Shown here one piece after another: positions 36,401 to 42,903 of a DNA stretch of 62,027 nt. Numbering within the stretch: position 1 is the first letter of the stretch; each line of letters starts with the position of its first letter. The notes below the pieces were generated by a model, which saw only the letters and a program-made list of their open reading frames with translations, was not told the origin of the DNA and did not search any database. The position numbers and the translations under genes are program-made. Source of the stretch: Candidatus Poseidoniales archaeon (GTDB lineage: Archaea; Thermoplasmatota; Poseidoniia; Poseidoniales; Poseidoniaceae); the NCBI GenBank assembly GCA_009887095.1, contig QXYC01000009.1, positions 1-62,027 of the forward strand, read 5' to 3'.

Positions 36401-36482
36401 GCGCAACAACATGGAAGGCTTGCTCGAAGCGATTCACAATGCAGAAATTGAGTACGCCCGAACGCGACGGTTCTGGGCTTAA
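33447..36482 (+). CDS. lhr: Lhr-type superfamily 2 helicase with zinc ribbon
   Basis: 1011 residues. All SF2 motifs are visible: IIIAPTGSGKTLSAVLPVL (Walker A), AVIVDEVHDLAAS (DEVH), IGLSATVGN, LVCTSSLELGIDVGKIRRIV and MLQRVGRADHRLG. After the helicase core comes the long Lhr-specific winged-helix and beta-barrel region. Near the C-terminus LCCLRCKNVRRFRVARF and NKCTKCSGTMLAC supply a CxxC-CxxC zinc ribbon, followed by a helical tail. Lhr helicases unwind DNA:RNA and branched DNA in repair. The core Lhr length is about 850-900, so the C-terminal module is an addition. The last four bases overlap the convergent PI-PLC gene (TTAA shared). Confidence 0.85.
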   Translation: MSTVFSILDERLASSLERRGWEPTPVQTAALPDLCAGEDRIIIAPTGSGKTLSAVLPVLHRCLSEQWDPLAILYITPLRALNRDVDRRLEEITSDVGLKVGLRHGDTTQSERARQTRKPPHLLVTTPETFQLMFTGKNLRRLLGSVRAVIVDEVHDLAASERGWQLSLGLARLEALSGHKVQRIGLSATVGNPDAVADWLSPNHGKAIIAMGERGTELTVECAHPLAEDEVGGIEMGVTPRVHASFRRLIEVLRTEPPCLVFVNSRNDAETIANRLQSMAPDVQIGVHHGSLAADTRQDMEDRLRAGELSGLVCTSSLELGIDVGKIRRIVQVKSPRSVDRMLQRVGRADHRLGGIGKGHLLAWDADEIAEGAVVARRAMFGEIEPVEWRERPKAVVANQLVLMAHSHNAVPIDTATEIIGNASQFKGWNRQDTEAILKVLADSWIIRHTPDPKEIPWYRWPAKVYAHAQAEAKAKKLDLPEERPKYNVPDEEISTGLKELNVPVPTAFAKGWFSTAGRTRQWVTNHLSMIPDKQSYRVRDAVTRRSLGNVDEAFVLSLNDSGEDDDGHRRQFVMAGRTWMIIDADPEQSELLVTPVSDQASAPQWVGELPPVPKAIARDIGRLRHLIAEDIGAYDAPVEHNEDALDVNGLFAGRNSSLKEHPIDDEALGVLAETITSHLEVTGVIATDRKITIEERDDAIVINSCHGSRINEALGHFLMAMASTKTGKWGRLVNEPTRISLQTGSIHAEHIVGWLTETPPDALQGLLSVTLPNSRQVRWRFAQVAKTFGILRHGVDPRKINLQALLRKYRGTVVMEEVLDKLFHERMDVLGARDVMHAIQSGLIEIEISPTGPMGVSNRSSRDLLLPNWDNAAVREKLRTRLVNERAVLCCLRCKNVRRFRVARFNEIPGINKCTKCSGTMLACAREGMQTMLEGWVASEDEKDQARMIKNADIVQSRGYEAVVCLMGRGVGEATAQRLLRRTQRNNMEGLLEAIHNAEIEYARTRRFWA

Positions 36483-37429
36483 ACGGGTGATTCCATCTTG
36501 TTGATGGCAAGGGATGCGGCGACAACATCACCGTCTTCCCACCAATCCACTGCAATGAATGTGGGGCGTTTGCCATGTTGAATCCAGCATTCAGTGGCTC
36601 GTTCAACCAAAAATTCGACGTTGTTTGCTTCCTCACCCCTCGAAGGGTCTGAAAGCCCAAGTGGACCGCGAAGCCAGTTGTTCATGTGAAACACTTCTTG
36701 TTCGGGATCACCACGCAGTGGGTCGCAATTCATGTCTTCAGTGTTCTCTTCAGCAAAATTAGTGGTCCAACTGTGGGTCAAGAAATCATGGATCCAAGGA
36801 TGGTTTGGGTCTGCGCCCTGCTCCCAAAACACAACCAATGGAGTCCCAGACTGAATCATCGATCCCAGCGTAGGCCATGGTTCATTCATTGAATGGAAGA
36901 ACACTTGCTCGTACATACCAGACGCCTCGAACACCGATTTTAGATGGTCTGGCTGGACATAATTTTCGACGAGCAGCGTCACCACATCACGGGGGGAACC
37001 CTCCATCAGCCCTTTCAATTGACTCAACCAAGATTCCGCATTCACATTGCCATAACTGCACGGGCTGAACCCTCGGTCATCGTCGCCATGGCACAACCTG
37101 ACGGTTTCAACTCGCTCATCGCCAAGGGTCTCGTAATGAGTGTCAATCATGAACGCCCTCATGCCTGCGTTCCATTGTGCTAAGAGGCCGGTTTGGTGGT
37201 TTGCTGCCGGGTAGTAAATTCCATCCTCATGCGTGGAAAAGGCATTGTGAGTTTCAGGGAACGTGACATCCGAATAACTGCGTTCACACAACACGACCAA
37301 TCCGTTGCACGCCTCGCCTGCTTCGGCATCCTCTTCGTTTTCGGTTTCGCTCATTGGGACGGTCGGAGTCACACATCCAGAAAGCATTAGCAGGGTGGTG
37401 AGAGCCAATGCCCCAAGAGAACCCCGCAT
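36479..37429 (-). CDS. PI-PLC X-domain lipoprotein
   Basis: 316 residues. MRGSLGALALTTLLMLSGC is a lipoprotein signal with lipobox LSGC, followed by a Thr/Glu-rich linker. The catalytic X-domain pattern is clear: FPETHNAFSTHEDG (first histidine), WNAGMRAFMIDTHYE (metal or substrate acidic residues), RLCHGDD (second histidine) and DVVTLLVENYVQPDHLKSVF. Members cleave phosphatidylinositol, or GPI or related phosphodiesters, outside the cell. It is the last of three genes in the order folC, dCMP deaminase, PI-PLC, though its function seems unrelated to theirs. Confidence 0.75.
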   Translation of the reverse strand: MRGSLGALALTTLLMLSGCVTPTVPMSETENEEDAEAGEACNGLVVLCERSYSDVTFPETHNAFSTHEDGIYYPAANHQTGLLAQWNAGMRAFMIDTHYETLGDERVETVRLCHGDDDRGFSPCSYGNVNAESWLSQLKGLMEGSPRDVVTLLVENYVQPDHLKSVFEASGMYEQVFFHSMNEPWPTLGSMIQSGTPLVVFWEQGADPNHPWIHDFLTHSWTTNFAEENTEDMNCDPLRGDPEQEVFHMNNWLRGPLGLSDPSRGEEANNVEFLVERATECWIQHGKRPTFIAVDWWEDGDVVAASLAINKMESPV

Positions 37430-37474: not shown

Positions 37475-37924
37475 TCAAGCCTTTGGGTCAACCGTACGGA
37501 CGAGCACACCTGCTTCGAGCAGCATGCCATTCGAGGTGTCAAAGTCTTCTTGCCATCGTTCTGGAATATTTTCAGGTGTCGGATAGACAACTTCGTGAAT
37601 GCCTGCTTGTATGAGCGAGCGAGCGCAACGGGAGCAAGGGGGCCAAGTCACAAACGCCGTGTTGCCTTTGAGAGAGACGCCGATGCGAGCTGCGTGCATG
37701 ATGGCGTTTTCCTCTGCATGGCAAATAAGCGGGTATTTTTTGTTGCGATCTGTGAGACGGTCGTTGTCATCACTGATGCCTCTTGGAAAGCCATTGAACC
37801 CTGTGGATCGAATCTCTCGGTCCTCACCAACGACAACACATCCAACTTTCGTCGAGGGATCCTTGCTCCATCCGGATATGTGAAATGCAAGGTCAAGAAA
37901 ACGTTCGTCCCACTTGTCACTCAT
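37475..37924 (-). CDS. dCMP deaminase
   Basis: 149 residues starting MSDKWDERFLDLAFHISGWS. CHAEENAIMHAARIG provides the zinc-binding His and catalytic Glu, and WPPCSRCARSLIQAG the two zinc-binding cysteines of the cytidine/deoxycytidylate deaminase fold. TKVGCVVVGEDREIRSTGFN and NGFPRGISD are typical of dCMP deaminases, which turn dCMP into dUMP for thymidylate synthesis. The start at 37924 is chosen because residues upstream are unrelated to the family and overlap folC. It lies 34 bases after folC and 45 bases before the PI-PLC gene. Coupling of dTMP synthesis and folate metabolism through folC makes biochemical sense. Confidence 0.87.
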   Translation of the reverse strand: MSDKWDERFLDLAFHISGWSKDPSTKVGCVVVGEDREIRSTGFNGFPRGISDDNDRLTDRNKKYPLICHAEENAIMHAARIGVSLKGNTAFVTWPPCSRCARSLIQAGIHEVVYPTPENIPERWQEDFDTSNGMLLEAGVLVRTVDPKA

Positions 37925-37958
37925 TGTCGCACCAACCCAAGCACACTGGTCGGTGCTA

Positions 37959-39248
37959 TCATTGCTTCGCCAAGAGGGAAAGGTCCTCATCATTGGAACG
38001 GCCGAGCGCCTCGAGGATGTTTCCTTGCAAATACAACGACCCGAGGCTGACCACCAAGCCGACCTCACGAGGCTGGCTTTCGGCAAGGTAGTGAATGGCT
38101 TCGAGCGGTTTGGGTTCGACACGAACAGATTTGCACGGCCAGGCGAGGCTTGCAATGACCGTTGCTGAAACTGCAGGGTACCTGCCGCCTTGTGGTTCAG
38201 TGAAGACGATTTGATGCGGTGGATGACGTTCGCAGAGTTCGATGAGAGGCTGACAGAACATTCCCAAGTCTTGCTGCGGTGATGTACCAAACACAAGCGT
38301 CCACCCGAAGGGTTTGGTTTGATTCGATGCTGCAATGACCTGTTCCAACTCGGGCAGCACTCGCAGCAAGCCGGAAGGGTTGTGGGCAGCATCGAGCACA
38401 AATGGATGCGCCGAATGGGTGCTTGGTTCGACGCGCTGCATACGAGCTGGCCAGCGCACTTGCTCGAATGCCTCCCTCATAGCAGATGTTGGAAGCCCTA
38501 CTTTTTTGAGAAGAGAAGTGGCTAAGATTCGACCCTCATCCCGAACAGATGTCCCCGGAGGAATCTCAATCAGCTTCGGAACGGCAGGCGCCTGATGTTC
38601 ACCGAGCGCCGTCTGGCCAGCGGATTGCACTTCGTCAAGCATGGCTTGTTCAACCTCCTCGGTCATCGGGTGGCGAATCAGAATTGGACAATTTGGACGG
38701 GAAATAGCCGCCTTCTCCTTTGCAATCAGAGGCAATGAATCACCAAGTATGTCGCTGTGTTCTGCGCTCACCGATGTGATCAAACAAGCGGTTGCAGGAC
38801 CTGAACGGGTTGCGTCCTTACGCCCACCCAACCCGGTTTCAAGAATCAAGACCTCGACGCCAGCATCGCTGGCGCATTTCATCGCAGCGAGGTAGGTGGC
38901 CTCGAAAAAGGTCAATGGAACAATGGGGTCTTGGGCCGCAGCATCTCGAACCGCACCCAAAGCAGCCTCGAAGGGGATGGATGAGATTGGAACACCGTTG
39001 ATTCGAATTCGCTCCTCAACCCGAATGAGGTGGGGTGATGAAAACAGGAGGTTCGAGACGCCATTGAGCGTCAGCGACCCGGCCATGAGCGCGCACGCAG
39101 TTCCCTTGCCATTGCTTCCGGCGACATGGAGTATGTGTTCGGGTGTGTGTGGAAGATGCAGTCGCTTGAGGACGGATTTGGTGTGGGCAAGACCAAGGGC
39201 CATTCCGCCCTTTTTGGTCGCCTCAAGCCAGGTTCGCACATCGTCCAC
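37959..39248 (-). CDS. folC: Folylpolyglutamate/dihydrofolate synthase (FolC)
   Basis: 429 residues from a GTG start (VDDVRTWLEATKKGGMALGL). ILHVAGSNGKGTACALMAGS is the P-loop, ILETGLGGRKDATR the Mg/omega loop region and FVLDAAHNPSGLLRVL the C-terminal Mur-ligase signature. The enzyme adds glutamate to dihydropteroate or folates using ATP. The GTG at 39248 is preceded by GCGAGGAAA, and the alternative start at 39515 would overlap the divergent membrane-protein gene, so the shorter form is preferred; its length matches FolC (about 420). It heads a three-gene group with the dCMP deaminase and PI-PLC genes. Confidence 0.85.
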   Translation of the reverse strand: MDDVRTWLEATKKGGMALGLAHTKSVLKRLHLPHTPEHILHVAGSNGKGTACALMAGSLTLNGVSNLLFSSPHLIRVEERIRINGVPISSIPFEAALGAVRDAAAQDPIVPLTFFEATYLAAMKCASDAGVEVLILETGLGGRKDATRSGPATACLITSVSAEHSDILGDSLPLIAKEKAAISRPNCPILIRHPMTEEVEQAMLDEVQSAGQTALGEHQAPAVPKLIEIPPGTSVRDEGRILATSLLKKVGLPTSAMREAFEQVRWPARMQRVEPSTHSAHPFVLDAAHNPSGLLRVLPELEQVIAASNQTKPFGWTLVFGTSPQQDLGMFCQPLIELCERHPPHQIVFTEPQGGRYPAVSATVIASLAWPCKSVRVEPKPLEAIHYLAESQPREVGLVVSLGSLYLQGNILEALGRSNDEDLSLLAKQ

Positions 39249-39321
39249 TTTCCTCGCCCCAGCCCCTCCGAGGGCCACCTTGGTGAAGAGCCTCTCGCAT
39301 TGCCCATGAACAATGGAAGGA

Positions 39322-39338
39322 CGCCCCCGTAGGGGGCG
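39322..39338 (+). promoter_or_regulatory. Hairpin upstream of the presenilin-like gene
   Basis: CGCCCCC-GTA-GGGGGCG is a perfect 7-bp stem with a three-base loop, about 45 bases before ATG 39383 and within the divergent region shared with folC. It may be a leader hairpin. Confidence 0.4.
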
Positions 39339-39382
39339 CTTAGATGCATCATGCTGATATGGGGACGCAACCTCCGAGAACC

Positions 39383-41599
39383 ATGACCAACGATGATTCG
39401 CCATCGACGCCAAAGCAAAAGGCTCAGGCTCAAACTTCGAAGGAATTCGAAGCAATGGAGGCTCAACTTCGTCAAGAAGACAGCCTTTGGTCGATGATGA
39501 AGGAGCAGATGACATCGATGCTCGGCATGGTTGGCATGTTCATCATCACAATCCTACTGGCGTTGTTTATTCGCCCATGGTACGACATTGGCGGCTTGCA
39601 TGCCTTTGGCGATGCTGGCGCAACCCAAGTCCGTTACATTGCTCTGGAATTGGTGATGATTTTTGTCTTCACTGCGTTTATCCTCATGCTTGCAAAATAC
39701 AAGAAAGACTGGGTCATCAAGTATGGGATTATGGGCGTTCTCGCGCTTGCATTGATGTATTCAACCGTACCGTTGGCCCACATGATCATGATGGATTTCG
39801 AATCTGATCCGTACGCTGTTGAGGAAGAAACATCTTTTGACAGCGTGCTCCTTACCCATTCAGGATTTGATGGCCATTTGATGTCCACATTAACGGGCAC
39901 CGCTGGCACTTGGGGCGACACGATCACCTACTATGAAGGGAACAACATGAGCGATAATACGTCAATGTGGACTAACAACCACGAGCGCCACCCCGCAGGA
40001 GACGGTGACCGAATCCAGGCATCGATTGGCGATGGGGTGTTTACGTTCGCAAACGGCGCGTGGGTGTGGTATGTTGACGCCTTGACCGGCGAAACGATTG
40101 ATTCCTATGAATGCCATGAGTTTGAGGTCAATGATGAGGGAGAGAATTATTCGCAATTCCTACCGAGCATCGGTTCGGCGTGCATGCTTGCTTTCCACAC
40201 AAACGATGCGATGTACATCGTTGATGAGGGTGGATTTATGCACCGTTTCAACACATTTGACGAAACCCCGGGTGCCATGATAATGCAAGCCACATGGCGC
40301 CTTCCTGTCGGTCTTGATGCCCACATCGAGACCGTCTATGCTGAATCTCTTGCTGACGACAAGGTCATGATTGTAACACCAAATATGGCGGTCGTCATTG
40401 AACTCGAAGAATTTTCGGAAGCCAACGACCCAACCACACCTGAAGCAAGCAATTTTGCTAAAGTAGTGTTCCAATACAACGCAACCAGCAGCATCACATC
40501 TGCAGATTTCGGACCATCGCCTTGGTCCCCAGCGGTTTACAACGGCCCAGATTCAAGTGAAGAAATCTTGATCCTTGGTGAGGAAAATGGTGACGTCGTT
40601 GGGTTTGAATGGAACGCCTCTGCCACCCCAGAATTCACCAAAGAAGAAGGAATGATGCTCGAAGGGTTTGGAGCCTCCATCCAATCCGTTCGATTGGTCG
40701 ACAAGGATGTCACTGGGTACACAGAACTCTTGGTCACCACCAACACTCAAGCGCATTGGCTCTATGGAGGCAACCTCATCCAGAAACTCAGCATCGACAT
40801 CGAGGAAGGCTTCTCAACAGGTTGGTTTTCAACAGACGCCGAAGGAGACGACCAATTCAATGCAATGTATTCCAATGCATCAACTGCAGTAGAAAGCGGT
40901 GTCGTCACCTCAGAGATGGAAGTCATCAGTGGCCTCCAGTTGTACGATGTACCGCTTGTCATCGGTGTTCTTGTTGCTCTTGTGCTGATGGTGTTGCTCT
41001 ACGTCCACAGCGAATGGTACGTGGTGAACACGGTTGGTGTCTTGGTTGGATCCGGTGTTGTCGTGATGTTGGGTGTGGCCTTTGTTCCAACGCTCATCAT
41101 TGTGTTCATGATCGCTGCGGCAATCTATGATGCATGGGCAGTGTACAAATCGAAGCACATGCTTGATTTGGCCGACACCATGATTGGTCTACGCCTTCCA
41201 ATATTGCTGGTTGCCCCTCAAGAGAAGGGGTACTCCTTTGTCGAAGAAACCACATCGATGAAACAGAAAAACCAACCAGCGGTCGCCTCACCATCTGTCG
41301 GCCAACCAAAAAAGAAGAAGAGCAAAGATGCCATGTTCATGGGTCTCGGTGATGTGATTTTCCCTGGAATGCTTGTTGTTTCTGCGGCGCAGTGGCTCGA
41401 CCACAGCGATGCAATCCTCGTTGCAATCTCCACCCTTATCGGCGGCCTTGTAGGCTACTTTGCACTCATGACCTATGTGGCACGAGGAAGGGCTCAAGCA
41501 GGCCTTCCTCTGCTTAACGGCGGATCGATTCTTGGCTATGTTGTTGGCGGGTTCATCTTCATCGGTTCTGCCATCTTCGATTTCGGAATATCATTTTGA
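39383..41599 (+). CDS. Archaeal presenilin/SPP-family intramembrane aspartyl protease with large extracytoplasmic insertion
   Basis: 738 residues. The three presenilin signatures are present and in order: IAAAIYDAWAVY (YD, catalytic Asp about 583), MGLGDVIFPGMLV (GLGD, Asp about 657) and LPLLNGGSILGYVV (PAL-like, about 708-711). Nine hydrophobic helices can be drawn: three at residues about 47-135 and six from about 520 on. Between the third and fourth helices lies a soluble stretch of about 380 residues (about 138-520) rich in Asp, Thr and aromatic residues with propeller-like repeats (VIELEEFSEAN; EEILILGEENGDVVGFEW). It should face outward. Archaeal homologues are about 300 residues without it. 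ATG 39383 is preferred; ATG 39344 adds 13 residues. It ends 11 bases before serS. Confidence 0.82.
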   Translation: MTNDDSPSTPKQKAQAQTSKEFEAMEAQLRQEDSLWSMMKEQMTSMLGMVGMFIITILLALFIRPWYDIGGLHAFGDAGATQVRYIALELVMIFVFTAFILMLAKYKKDWVIKYGIMGVLALALMYSTVPLAHMIMMDFESDPYAVEEETSFDSVLLTHSGFDGHLMSTLTGTAGTWGDTITYYEGNNMSDNTSMWTNNHERHPAGDGDRIQASIGDGVFTFANGAWVWYVDALTGETIDSYECHEFEVNDEGENYSQFLPSIGSACMLAFHTNDAMYIVDEGGFMHRFNTFDETPGAMIMQATWRLPVGLDAHIETVYAESLADDKVMIVTPNMAVVIELEEFSEANDPTTPEASNFAKVVFQYNATSSITSADFGPSPWSPAVYNGPDSSEEILILGEENGDVVGFEWNASATPEFTKEEGMMLEGFGASIQSVRLVDKDVTGYTELLVTTNTQAHWLYGGNLIQKLSIDIEEGFSTGWFSTDAEGDDQFNAMYSNASTAVESGVVTSEMEVISGLQLYDVPLVIGVLVALVLMVLLYVHSEWYVVNTVGVLVGSGVVVMLGVAFVPTLIIVFMIAAAIYDAWAVYKSKHMLDLADTMIGLRLPILLVAPQEKGYSFVEETTSMKQKNQPAVASPSVGQPKKKKSKDAMFMGLGDVIFPGMLVVSAAQWLDHSDAILVAISTLIGGLVGYFALMTYVARGRAQAGLPLLNGGSILGYVVGGFIFIGSAIFDFGISF

Positions 41600-41610
41600 G
41601 GTGATGCACG

Positions 41611-42903
41611 ATGCTTGAAATTAATCTGTTCAGAAACAACCCCGACATCATTCGCAAGGACCACGACAAGCGTGGCATCCCTCACGACAACATTGAGAAG
41701 GTCATCGAGTTGGACCAAGCTTGGGTGAATCTTCAACACCAAACAAATCAACTGAGAGCCACCAAAAACACAGCCGCTCGTGGAATCGGAGCAGCAAAGA
41801 AGGCCGGCGAGGAGGTTGAAGCAAAGCGAATCCTCGCCGAAGTCGCTGACCTTGGCGCTCAGATCAGTGAATTGGAAAAGAAGACCGATGATGCTCTCGC
41901 ACAACGGGACCAAATCAGAATGAGCATTCCAAACATCCTTCATGATGATGTGCCAAAGGGAGCGGACGAATCGGGGAACACCCTCCACAGCGTGCATGGG
42001 ACAAAGCCATCGTTCGACTTTGATGCACGAACTCACAACGAATTGATTGAAATGAACAAGTGGGTGGATTTGAAGCGAGCAGCAAAAATCGTTGGCAGTC
42101 GTTTCTTTTTCCTGAAAGGAGACCTTGCAAGAATGGAATTCGCATTGCAGCAATACGCTGTCAATTTCATTCGAGAGCGGGGCTATACCTTCGTTCAACC
42201 ACCTGTGATGATGAACAAAGACGCCTACGAAGGCGTGACTGATCTTTCTGATTTCGAGACGGTGATGTACGGCGTGGAACCCGACAAGTACTACATGATT
42301 GCAACCGCTGAACACCCCCTTACGGCCATGTTCATGGGCGAAACAATTCCAGAAGCAGACCTCCCACTCCGCATTGTCGGCGTTTCGCCTTGTTTCCGAC
42401 GTGAGGTTGGTTCCCACGGACAATCTGACTTAGGGATCTGGCGCGTGCACCAATTCACCAAGATTGAACAAATTATCATCGCAAGCCCTGACCAGTCGTG
42501 GGAACTGCAAGAAGAGTTGCTCCAAAACTGCGTTGATTTGTGGGATGCTTTGGGCATGCACTACGAAGTGGTCAACATTTGCACCGGTGACATGGGAACA
42601 GTCGCCGCAAAGAAGTACGATCTTGAGGCATGGATTCCGGGAGCAGATCAATACAAGGAAATCGTGTCTTGCTCAAATTGCACCGACTACCAGGCGAACC
42701 GCCTCCAAATCCGCTATGGCCAACCTGGCCACGCTGGCCAACCAATCGCCCACACGCTCAATTCCACAGCCGTGGCTACGTCTCGGGCACTTGTTGCCAT
42801 TATGGAACAAAACCAGATGGAAGACGGACGGGTGCGCATCCCTGAAGTGTTGCAACCGCTCATGGGTGGTCAAGAAGTGCTGGAACCATGCACCTGGGGC
42901 TAA
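41611..42903 (+). CDS. serS: Seryl-tRNA synthetase (common, bacterial-type)
   Basis: 430 residues with the class II synthetase plan. The N-terminal coiled-coil arm that binds the tRNA variable arm spans about residues 30-110 (ELDQAWVNLQHQTNQLRATK). Motif 1 lies near RERGYTFVQPPVMMNKDAYE, motif 2 at CFRREVGSHGQSDLGIWRVH, and motif 3 at HTLNSTAVATSRALVAIMEQ. It charges tRNA-Ser (and tRNA-Sec where present). It is the common form, not the rare methanogen type. GAGGTGAT lies 6 bases before the ATG, overlapping the stop of the presenilin-like gene, so the pair is probably cotranscribed. Confidence 0.95.
   Translation: MLEINLFRNNPDIIRKDHDKRGIPHDNIEKVIELDQAWVNLQHQTNQLRATKNTAARGIGAAKKAGEEVEAKRILAEVADLGAQISELEKKTDDALAQRDQIRMSIPNILHDDVPKGADESGNTLHSVHGTKPSFDFDARTHNELIEMNKWVDLKRAAKIVGSRFFFLKGDLARMEFALQQYAVNFIRERGYTFVQPPVMMNKDAYEGVTDLSDFETVMYGVEPDKYYMIATAEHPLTAMFMGETIPEADLPLRIVGVSPCFRREVGSHGQSDLGIWRVHQFTKIEQIIIASPDQSWELQEELLQNCVDLWDALGMHYEVVNICTGDMGTVAAKKYDLEAWIPGADQYKEIVSCSNCTDYQANRLQIRYGQPGHAGQPIAHTLNSTAVATSRALVAIMEQNQMEDGRVRIPEVLQPLMGGQEVLEPCTWG

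Follow-up and report, generated by a model that had tools for sequence, protein, structure and literature searches.

In gamma-secretase, whose membrane-cutting subunit presenilin is known from Alzheimer's disease, a large outer domain lies over the protease: PEN-2 contacts transmembrane helices (TM) 3 and 4 of presenilin, the nicastrin ectodomain contacts PEN-2, PEN-2 rotates away along with TM3 and TM4 in one structure class, and nicastrin hinders substrates having longer outer parts (PMC7248309). In the eukaryotic SPPL2 proteases, a PA domain that faces outward is part of the protease chain itself and is involved in substrate recognition (PMC12043953); the same paper treats substrate choice by intramembrane aspartyl proteases as a question still open. 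On the archaeal side, a table in PMC9263693 gives the function of a Haloferax member of the PSH family as unknown, while model substrates, C99 among them, are known for the PSH of Methanoculleus (PMC9282858). Here we analyse a window of 62,027 nucleotides from a Candidatus Poseidoniales archaeon (contig QXYC01000009.1), in which positions 39383..41599 on the plus strand encode a PSH-family intramembrane aspartyl protease of 738 residues, with a predicted beta-propeller of about 378 residues in the loop between TM3 and TM4. The solved PSH of Methanoculleus marisnigri (4hyc, 4hyg and 4y6k), with 301 residues in total, has no room for such a domain. At odds slightly better than even (a probability of about 0.55), we favour the reading that this propeller faces outward and selects substrates, playing within the protease chain the part that nicastrin or the SPPL2 PA domain plays elsewhere.

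The protein belongs to the GxGD proteases of the presenilin/SPP type (PSH), as the original prediction, made from the DNA letters, had proposed; curated models, motifs and the predicted fold agree on this. The gene is a single open frame (39344-41599, plus strand), whose translation from the ATG at 39383 gives the 738 residues, and an in-frame ATG upstream, at 39344, is a possible alternative start. The protein scores 187.8 bits against Pfam SPP (cut-off 23.9, E 3.8e-55) and 230.5 bits against the NCBIfam PSH equivalog (cut-off 125, E 2.7e-68). The single convincing match among solved structures is Methanoculleus PSH (4hyc, E 7.7e-30); its significant part is confined to residues 527-725, as would be expected with a bulky region set between these and the N-terminal helices. 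The YD motif with the catalytic Asp583 in TM6 (41126..41131, plus strand, residues 582-583) and the GLGD motif with the catalytic Asp657 in TM7 (41342..41353, plus strand, residues 654-657) are present in 37/37 rows of our alignment A1, which comprises the window protein and 36 relatives (37 selected, L107 left out). Together with LPLL (41504-41515, residues 708-711), which lies within the stretch of TM8 and TM9 (41411..41560, plus strand), they make ten residues that are all invariant in A1, and the numbering first given for the two aspartates was correct. The third motif is thus PAL-like, LPLL rather than the PAL that PMC12043953 gives as the eukaryotic form. Since the catalytic motifs are intact, we infer an active protease. 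The genome to which the window belongs, as contig C32, measures 1.48 Mb and has an estimated completeness of 68%. The nearest named record is a Candidatus Poseidoniaceae metagenome-assembled genome (L031, 93% identity), which places the window in Marine Group II.

The predicted model contains three membrane-length helices ahead of the insert and six behind it, as the original prediction of nine helices had it, plus some shorter helices. TM1-TM3 (39509..39790, plus strand, residues about 43-136) are indicated by hydropathy, the predicted model and superposition on the solved PSH, and TM4-TM6 (40946..41149, plus strand, residues about 522-589) by the predicted model. The model superposes on the solved PSH from residue 44, the helices flanking the insert jointly forming the nine-helix PSH fold; this superposition was drawn from Foldseek's 1000 best matches to the full model, of which the best 50 are propeller-containing entries by description, with no presenilin among them. 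The loop between TM6 and TM7 (41150..41332, plus strand), inside by topology and Lys-rich near its end, is modelled with low confidence.

Between TM3 and TM4, residues 139-516 (39797..40930, plus strand) are predicted with high confidence to be folded, and the predicted fold is a beta-propeller of four-stranded blades arranged in a ring. The model holds 30 strands, which a manual count groups into about seven blades, the blade number and ring closure being deduced from structural matches. An insert of roughly 380 residues had been foreseen at residues 130-530; its size and propeller-like, folded character stand, and the boundaries are tighter than those given. The structural matches are WD40-type and other propellers, among them Utp21, Elp2, BBS7 and BamB, from which the insert differs by a sequence identity of about 7-14%. 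The insert cannot be assigned to any one propeller family, since its Foldseek TM-scores with individual propellers are modest, reaching 0.5-0.6 at best. The insert sequence finds nothing among solved structures at E 1 or better, and all Pfam matches of the inserts to propeller families are sub-threshold: the WDR36/Utp21 propeller model is matched by one of the 37 inserts (2.8e-4), WDR55 by one (0.16) and FG-GAP weakly by two (best 0.047), and none of the 18 Pfam families that any of the 37 inserts hit, up to a limit of E 1, is a WD40 repeat model. A better conserved stretch is ITSADFGPSPW (40493..40525, plus strand), in which G377 and S379 occur in at least 90% of 23 rows taken as Poseidoniaceae. 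As the ends of a closed propeller adjoin, such a domain could sit in a short loop and leave the nine-helix core undisturbed.

Indirect evidence places the N-terminus inside and the insert outside. Averaged over the 37 rows, Lys plus Arg number 3.0 in loop 2, 9.4 in loop 6 and 1.6 in loop 8, compared with 0.6 in loop 1 and 0.0 in both loop 5 and loop 7; this distribution points to the presenilin topology with the N-terminus inside, which puts the TM3-TM4 loop outside. The outward orientation expected from the presenilin topology is thereby supported, and neither outcome named beforehand as counting against the prediction, an unfolded insert or a cytoplasmic one, occurred; the phrase "third outward loop" needs amending, because the loop is the third overall and the second that faces outward. 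The acidic/basic ratio is 6.4 in the insert of the window protein and 1.0-1.4 in five window proteins taken as cytoplasmic (Lhr helicase, FolC, SerRS, a GGACT protein and AccC); it is 3.1 in a window protein with a lipoprotein-like start. Cys267 (40181..40183, plus strand) occurs in 37/37 rows of the alignment and Cys244 (40112..40114, plus strand), its possible disulfide partner, in 33/37, and the number of cysteines per insert is two in 26 rows, three in two and six in nine. Such paired cysteines, with a putative disulfide, would fit an oxidising outer side.

The distribution of the insert within Poseidoniales is informative, with family f1 taken as Poseidoniaceae and f2 as Thalassarchaeaceae. 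The PSH gene was matched in 53/59 genomes, 30 of f1 and 23 of f2. The insert sequence is present in 29 of the 30 matched Poseidoniaceae genomes (24 with the gene full length in one frame, four with contig-edge pieces and one, G030, with a stop-split gene), the thirtieth (G032) being an uninformative contig-edge fragment, and six matched Thalassarchaeaceae genomes have it and 17 lack it. Homologues of both kinds, whose search had been suggested at the outset, thus exist. A profile of the insert (A2) matched in 35/59 genomes, always at the PSH gene, and at E 0.01 it matched nowhere in the 17 insert-less genomes, by which we rejected a separate partner gene that supplies the insert, a more diverged partner being possible. 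FolC (37959..39515, minus strand) upstream and seryl-tRNA synthetase (SerRS; 41611..42903, plus strand, starting 11 bases past the PSH stop) downstream adjoin PSH in 26/26 Poseidoniales loci examined, 22 insert-bearing and four insert-less, so the two forms are the same gene. FolC and SerRS were not found beside PSH in the f3, f18 and f26 loci, one of each being examined.

The inserts of the two families are homologous, as a profile from the 23 Poseidoniaceae rows finds 4/4 rows of one group on the Thalassarchaeaceae side (2e-15 to 2e-19) and 9/9 rows of another group (1e-9 to 1e-21). In a SerRS tree (39 rows, without L225, whose SerRS is a fragment), ten insert-less genomes form one clade (100/97) inside the Thalassarchaeaceae (only 80/97), adjoining insert-bearing genomes (only 80/85). 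Because of the insert homology and this nesting, a single loss in an ancestor within the Thalassarchaeaceae is favoured as the simplest account. The same two observations speak against an ancestral insert-less state in Poseidoniales, on which the PSH tree (58 rows) is by itself undecisive, since its seven insert-less Thalassarchaeaceae rows form a 99/95 clade and the order of its main branches is unresolved. In f3, a family of the same class, 13 genomes were matched, and the 11 loci read are all without insert. Genome size tends to be lower in the insert-less Thalassarchaeaceae genera (0.9-1.7 Mb, for the most part 1.2-1.5) than in the insert-bearing ones (1.3-2.1 Mb), as read from a table of sizes uncorrected for completeness, and the loss may be associated with genome reduction. 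We also observed a gene in two frames with an internal TGA (L027, contig C15 of G030), which is a sequencing error or a decaying copy, two PSH genes on separate contigs of the insert-less G046, owing to contamination (estimated at 3%) or duplication, and archaeal PSH genes in records labelled Flavobacteriales (L075) and Rhodobiaceae (L078), which are probably mis-binned contigs.

Pfam SPP was matched in 167/194 Thermoplasmatota genomes, and long PSH genes occur outside Poseidoniia in at least 13 of them (families f8, f11, f18, f26, f28 and f33). Thirteen such genes were read, nine complete and four cut at a contig end; the complete ones have three hydrophobic segments, a soluble stretch of 234-371 residues and then six hydrophobic segments (five in L170). 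Among the genomes searched, families f8 and f18 fall in one order and f11 and f28 in another, and f26 and f33 belong to neither of these, so inserts occur in three or more further orders. The insert of L169 is propeller-like (BBS7 1.2e-5, FG-GAP_3 8.5e-4, both under the cut-off); the other eight of the nine scanned had no Pfam match better than 0.018. With filters off, profile A2 found short stretches of L170 (7.5e-5, 11.5 bits) and L168 (2.4e-4, 9.8 bits) among the 13, and profile-profile comparison with A2 gave at best 32% probability (E 5e-4), falling to 0.1-5.6% after A2 was split into groups; such scores are inflated, as propellers share repeats. By these comparisons the inserts of other orders are not clearly related to that of Poseidoniales. 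By eye, an EW-like stretch appears common to the starts of the other orders' inserts.

These inserts may descend from one old, drifted insert or from several separate gains. A quick PSH tree (105 rows) implied three changes of insert state, but two constrained trees were likelier than it (p-AU 0.85 and 0.81), so its search was incomplete and its tests exclude nothing. A careful tree of 58 of the 105 rows, hand-picked to prune near relatives and some of the long branches and with the insert-bearing L179 dropped, gave two changes (bootstrap range 2-4) and brought the insert rows of other orders together on a weak branch (66/27). Collection of loci by motif pattern missed 43 loci, 34 of which were covered by another collection, and L170 was re-added by hand. 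We tentatively suggest, as a possibility that we hold for less probable than its converse, that the loop between TM3 and TM4 serves presenilin-type proteases as a permanent socket for outward domains, filled separately in several archaeal orders, here by a propeller acting as a nicastrin in cis, and emptied by at least one clade.

Substrate selection or gating is, by analogy, the role best supported for the propeller, followed by ligand sensing and by docking as a scaffold. Since gamma-secretase has its outer domain near TM3/TM4 and SPPL2 has one within the chain, an outer domain in the TM3-TM4 loop would be in a good position to choose substrates or shift the gate. The propeller may lie over the substrate entry side and, by binding or excluding outward parts, decide which membrane-anchored stubs reach the gate. 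The comparison with nicastrin, already drawn in the original prediction, is plausible as one of role and not of descent: nicastrin and PEN-2 are separate subunits, whereas the propeller is in-chain, and no nicastrin model occurred among the Pfam matches of the inserts, while a sequence search of the PDB gave no match, both with a limit of E 1 and the folds not being directly compared. SPPL2a/b/c likewise combine an intramembrane aspartyl protease and an outward domain in one chain, but their PA domain is N-terminal, before TM1, where the window protein has only about 40 residues, and Pfam gave no PA-domain match in the window protein or the 37 inserts.

Several findings weigh against this proposal. 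The insert evolves fast, with a mean pairwise identity of 0.26 as against 0.63 in the C-terminal core, and only 23 positions in 137-521 are fixed at 90% in the 23 Poseidoniaceae rows. The full model has a predicted TM-score (pTM) of only 0.59 and does not fix the seat of the propeller on the membrane part. The topology signal is partly mixed, as two inside parts, the N-terminus and loop 6, are likewise rich in acidic residues (means 6.4 and 9.3) and loop 4 is nearly without charge. Moreover, a whole clade lives without the insert, which is therefore not needed for core PSH function.

The propeller could instead bind an extracellular ligand or signalling partner and activate the protease, which would then free a membrane-bound factor only in the presence of the ligand. 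Propellers are common binding scaffolds, and an outward, fast-evolving domain atop a conserved catalytic core would suit such a sensor, but none of the conserved neighbours, FolC and SerRS (26/26) and a deaminase-like gene (20/26), is an obvious regulator, and we rate this at little more than one chance in five. Somewhat less probable still is that the propeller docks the protease to an envelope complex such as the translocon, the S-layer or a sheddase, with no direct substrate choice, in the manner of BamB. BamB is among the structural matches, and the same loop in other orders holds inserts with no clear sequence relation, as if partners differ; the propeller fold is generic, however, and BamB is one of hundreds of similarly strong matches.

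Selection bears on the improbable alternative that the insert is a tolerated ornament of marginal role. In eight close pairs, hand-chosen and with insert boundaries in the relatives approximate (placed by offset from the YD motif), the insert had dN/dS values of 0.06-0.16, against 0.02-0.10 for the C-terminal core and 0-0.07 for the N-terminal part, insert dS being near saturation (1.84) in the pair L038/L043. The insert is thus under purifying selection, weaker than that on the C-terminal core in 8/8 pairs. This weaker constraint, the clade that lacks the insert and retains the gene and its genomic place, and the stop-split gene of G030 would suit an ornament, but the low ratios in every pair, the full-length single frames in 24 of the 30 matched Poseidoniaceae genomes (with four more contig-edge pieces) and the homology of the insert across both families argue against it. 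A fusion of two neighbouring genes by assembly or gene calling, to which we give almost no credence, is refuted by the recurrence of the one-frame arrangement in many genomes from different studies and by the helices on either side of the insert together building the PSH fold.

Upstream of the gene, the FolC frame overlaps the PSH start at 39383-39515 on the opposite strand; its best family match starts at residue 110, so the true FolC start is probably further in. A deaminase-like frame (37475-38401, minus strand) adjoins FolC in 20 of the 26 loci and has sub-cut-off matches to ComEB and an anti-phage dCTP deaminase model. At 36479-37429 (minus strand) lies an acidic protein of 316 residues that begins like a lipoprotein (LSGC); it had no Pfam or NCBIfam match at E 1 and chance-level PDB matches only, and may resemble PI-PLC-like phosphodiesterases.

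In the literature judged by titles and abstract openings, mostly outside subscription journals, we found no description of a propeller-bearing archaeal presenilin. Beside the separate subunit of gamma-secretase and the N-terminal domain of SPPL2, the window protein represents a third arrangement of an outer domain, in one chain and in a different loop, and the insert offers a handle on the function of PSH. The insert-less relatives at the same genomic place are a natural experiment, and a pair of enzymes with and without the propeller could show the effect of an outer domain without the four subunits of gamma-secretase. If the TM3-TM4 loop is indeed a socket that archaea have filled, a gated, ectodomain-selecting presenilin would have arisen in single-chain form outside eukaryotes.
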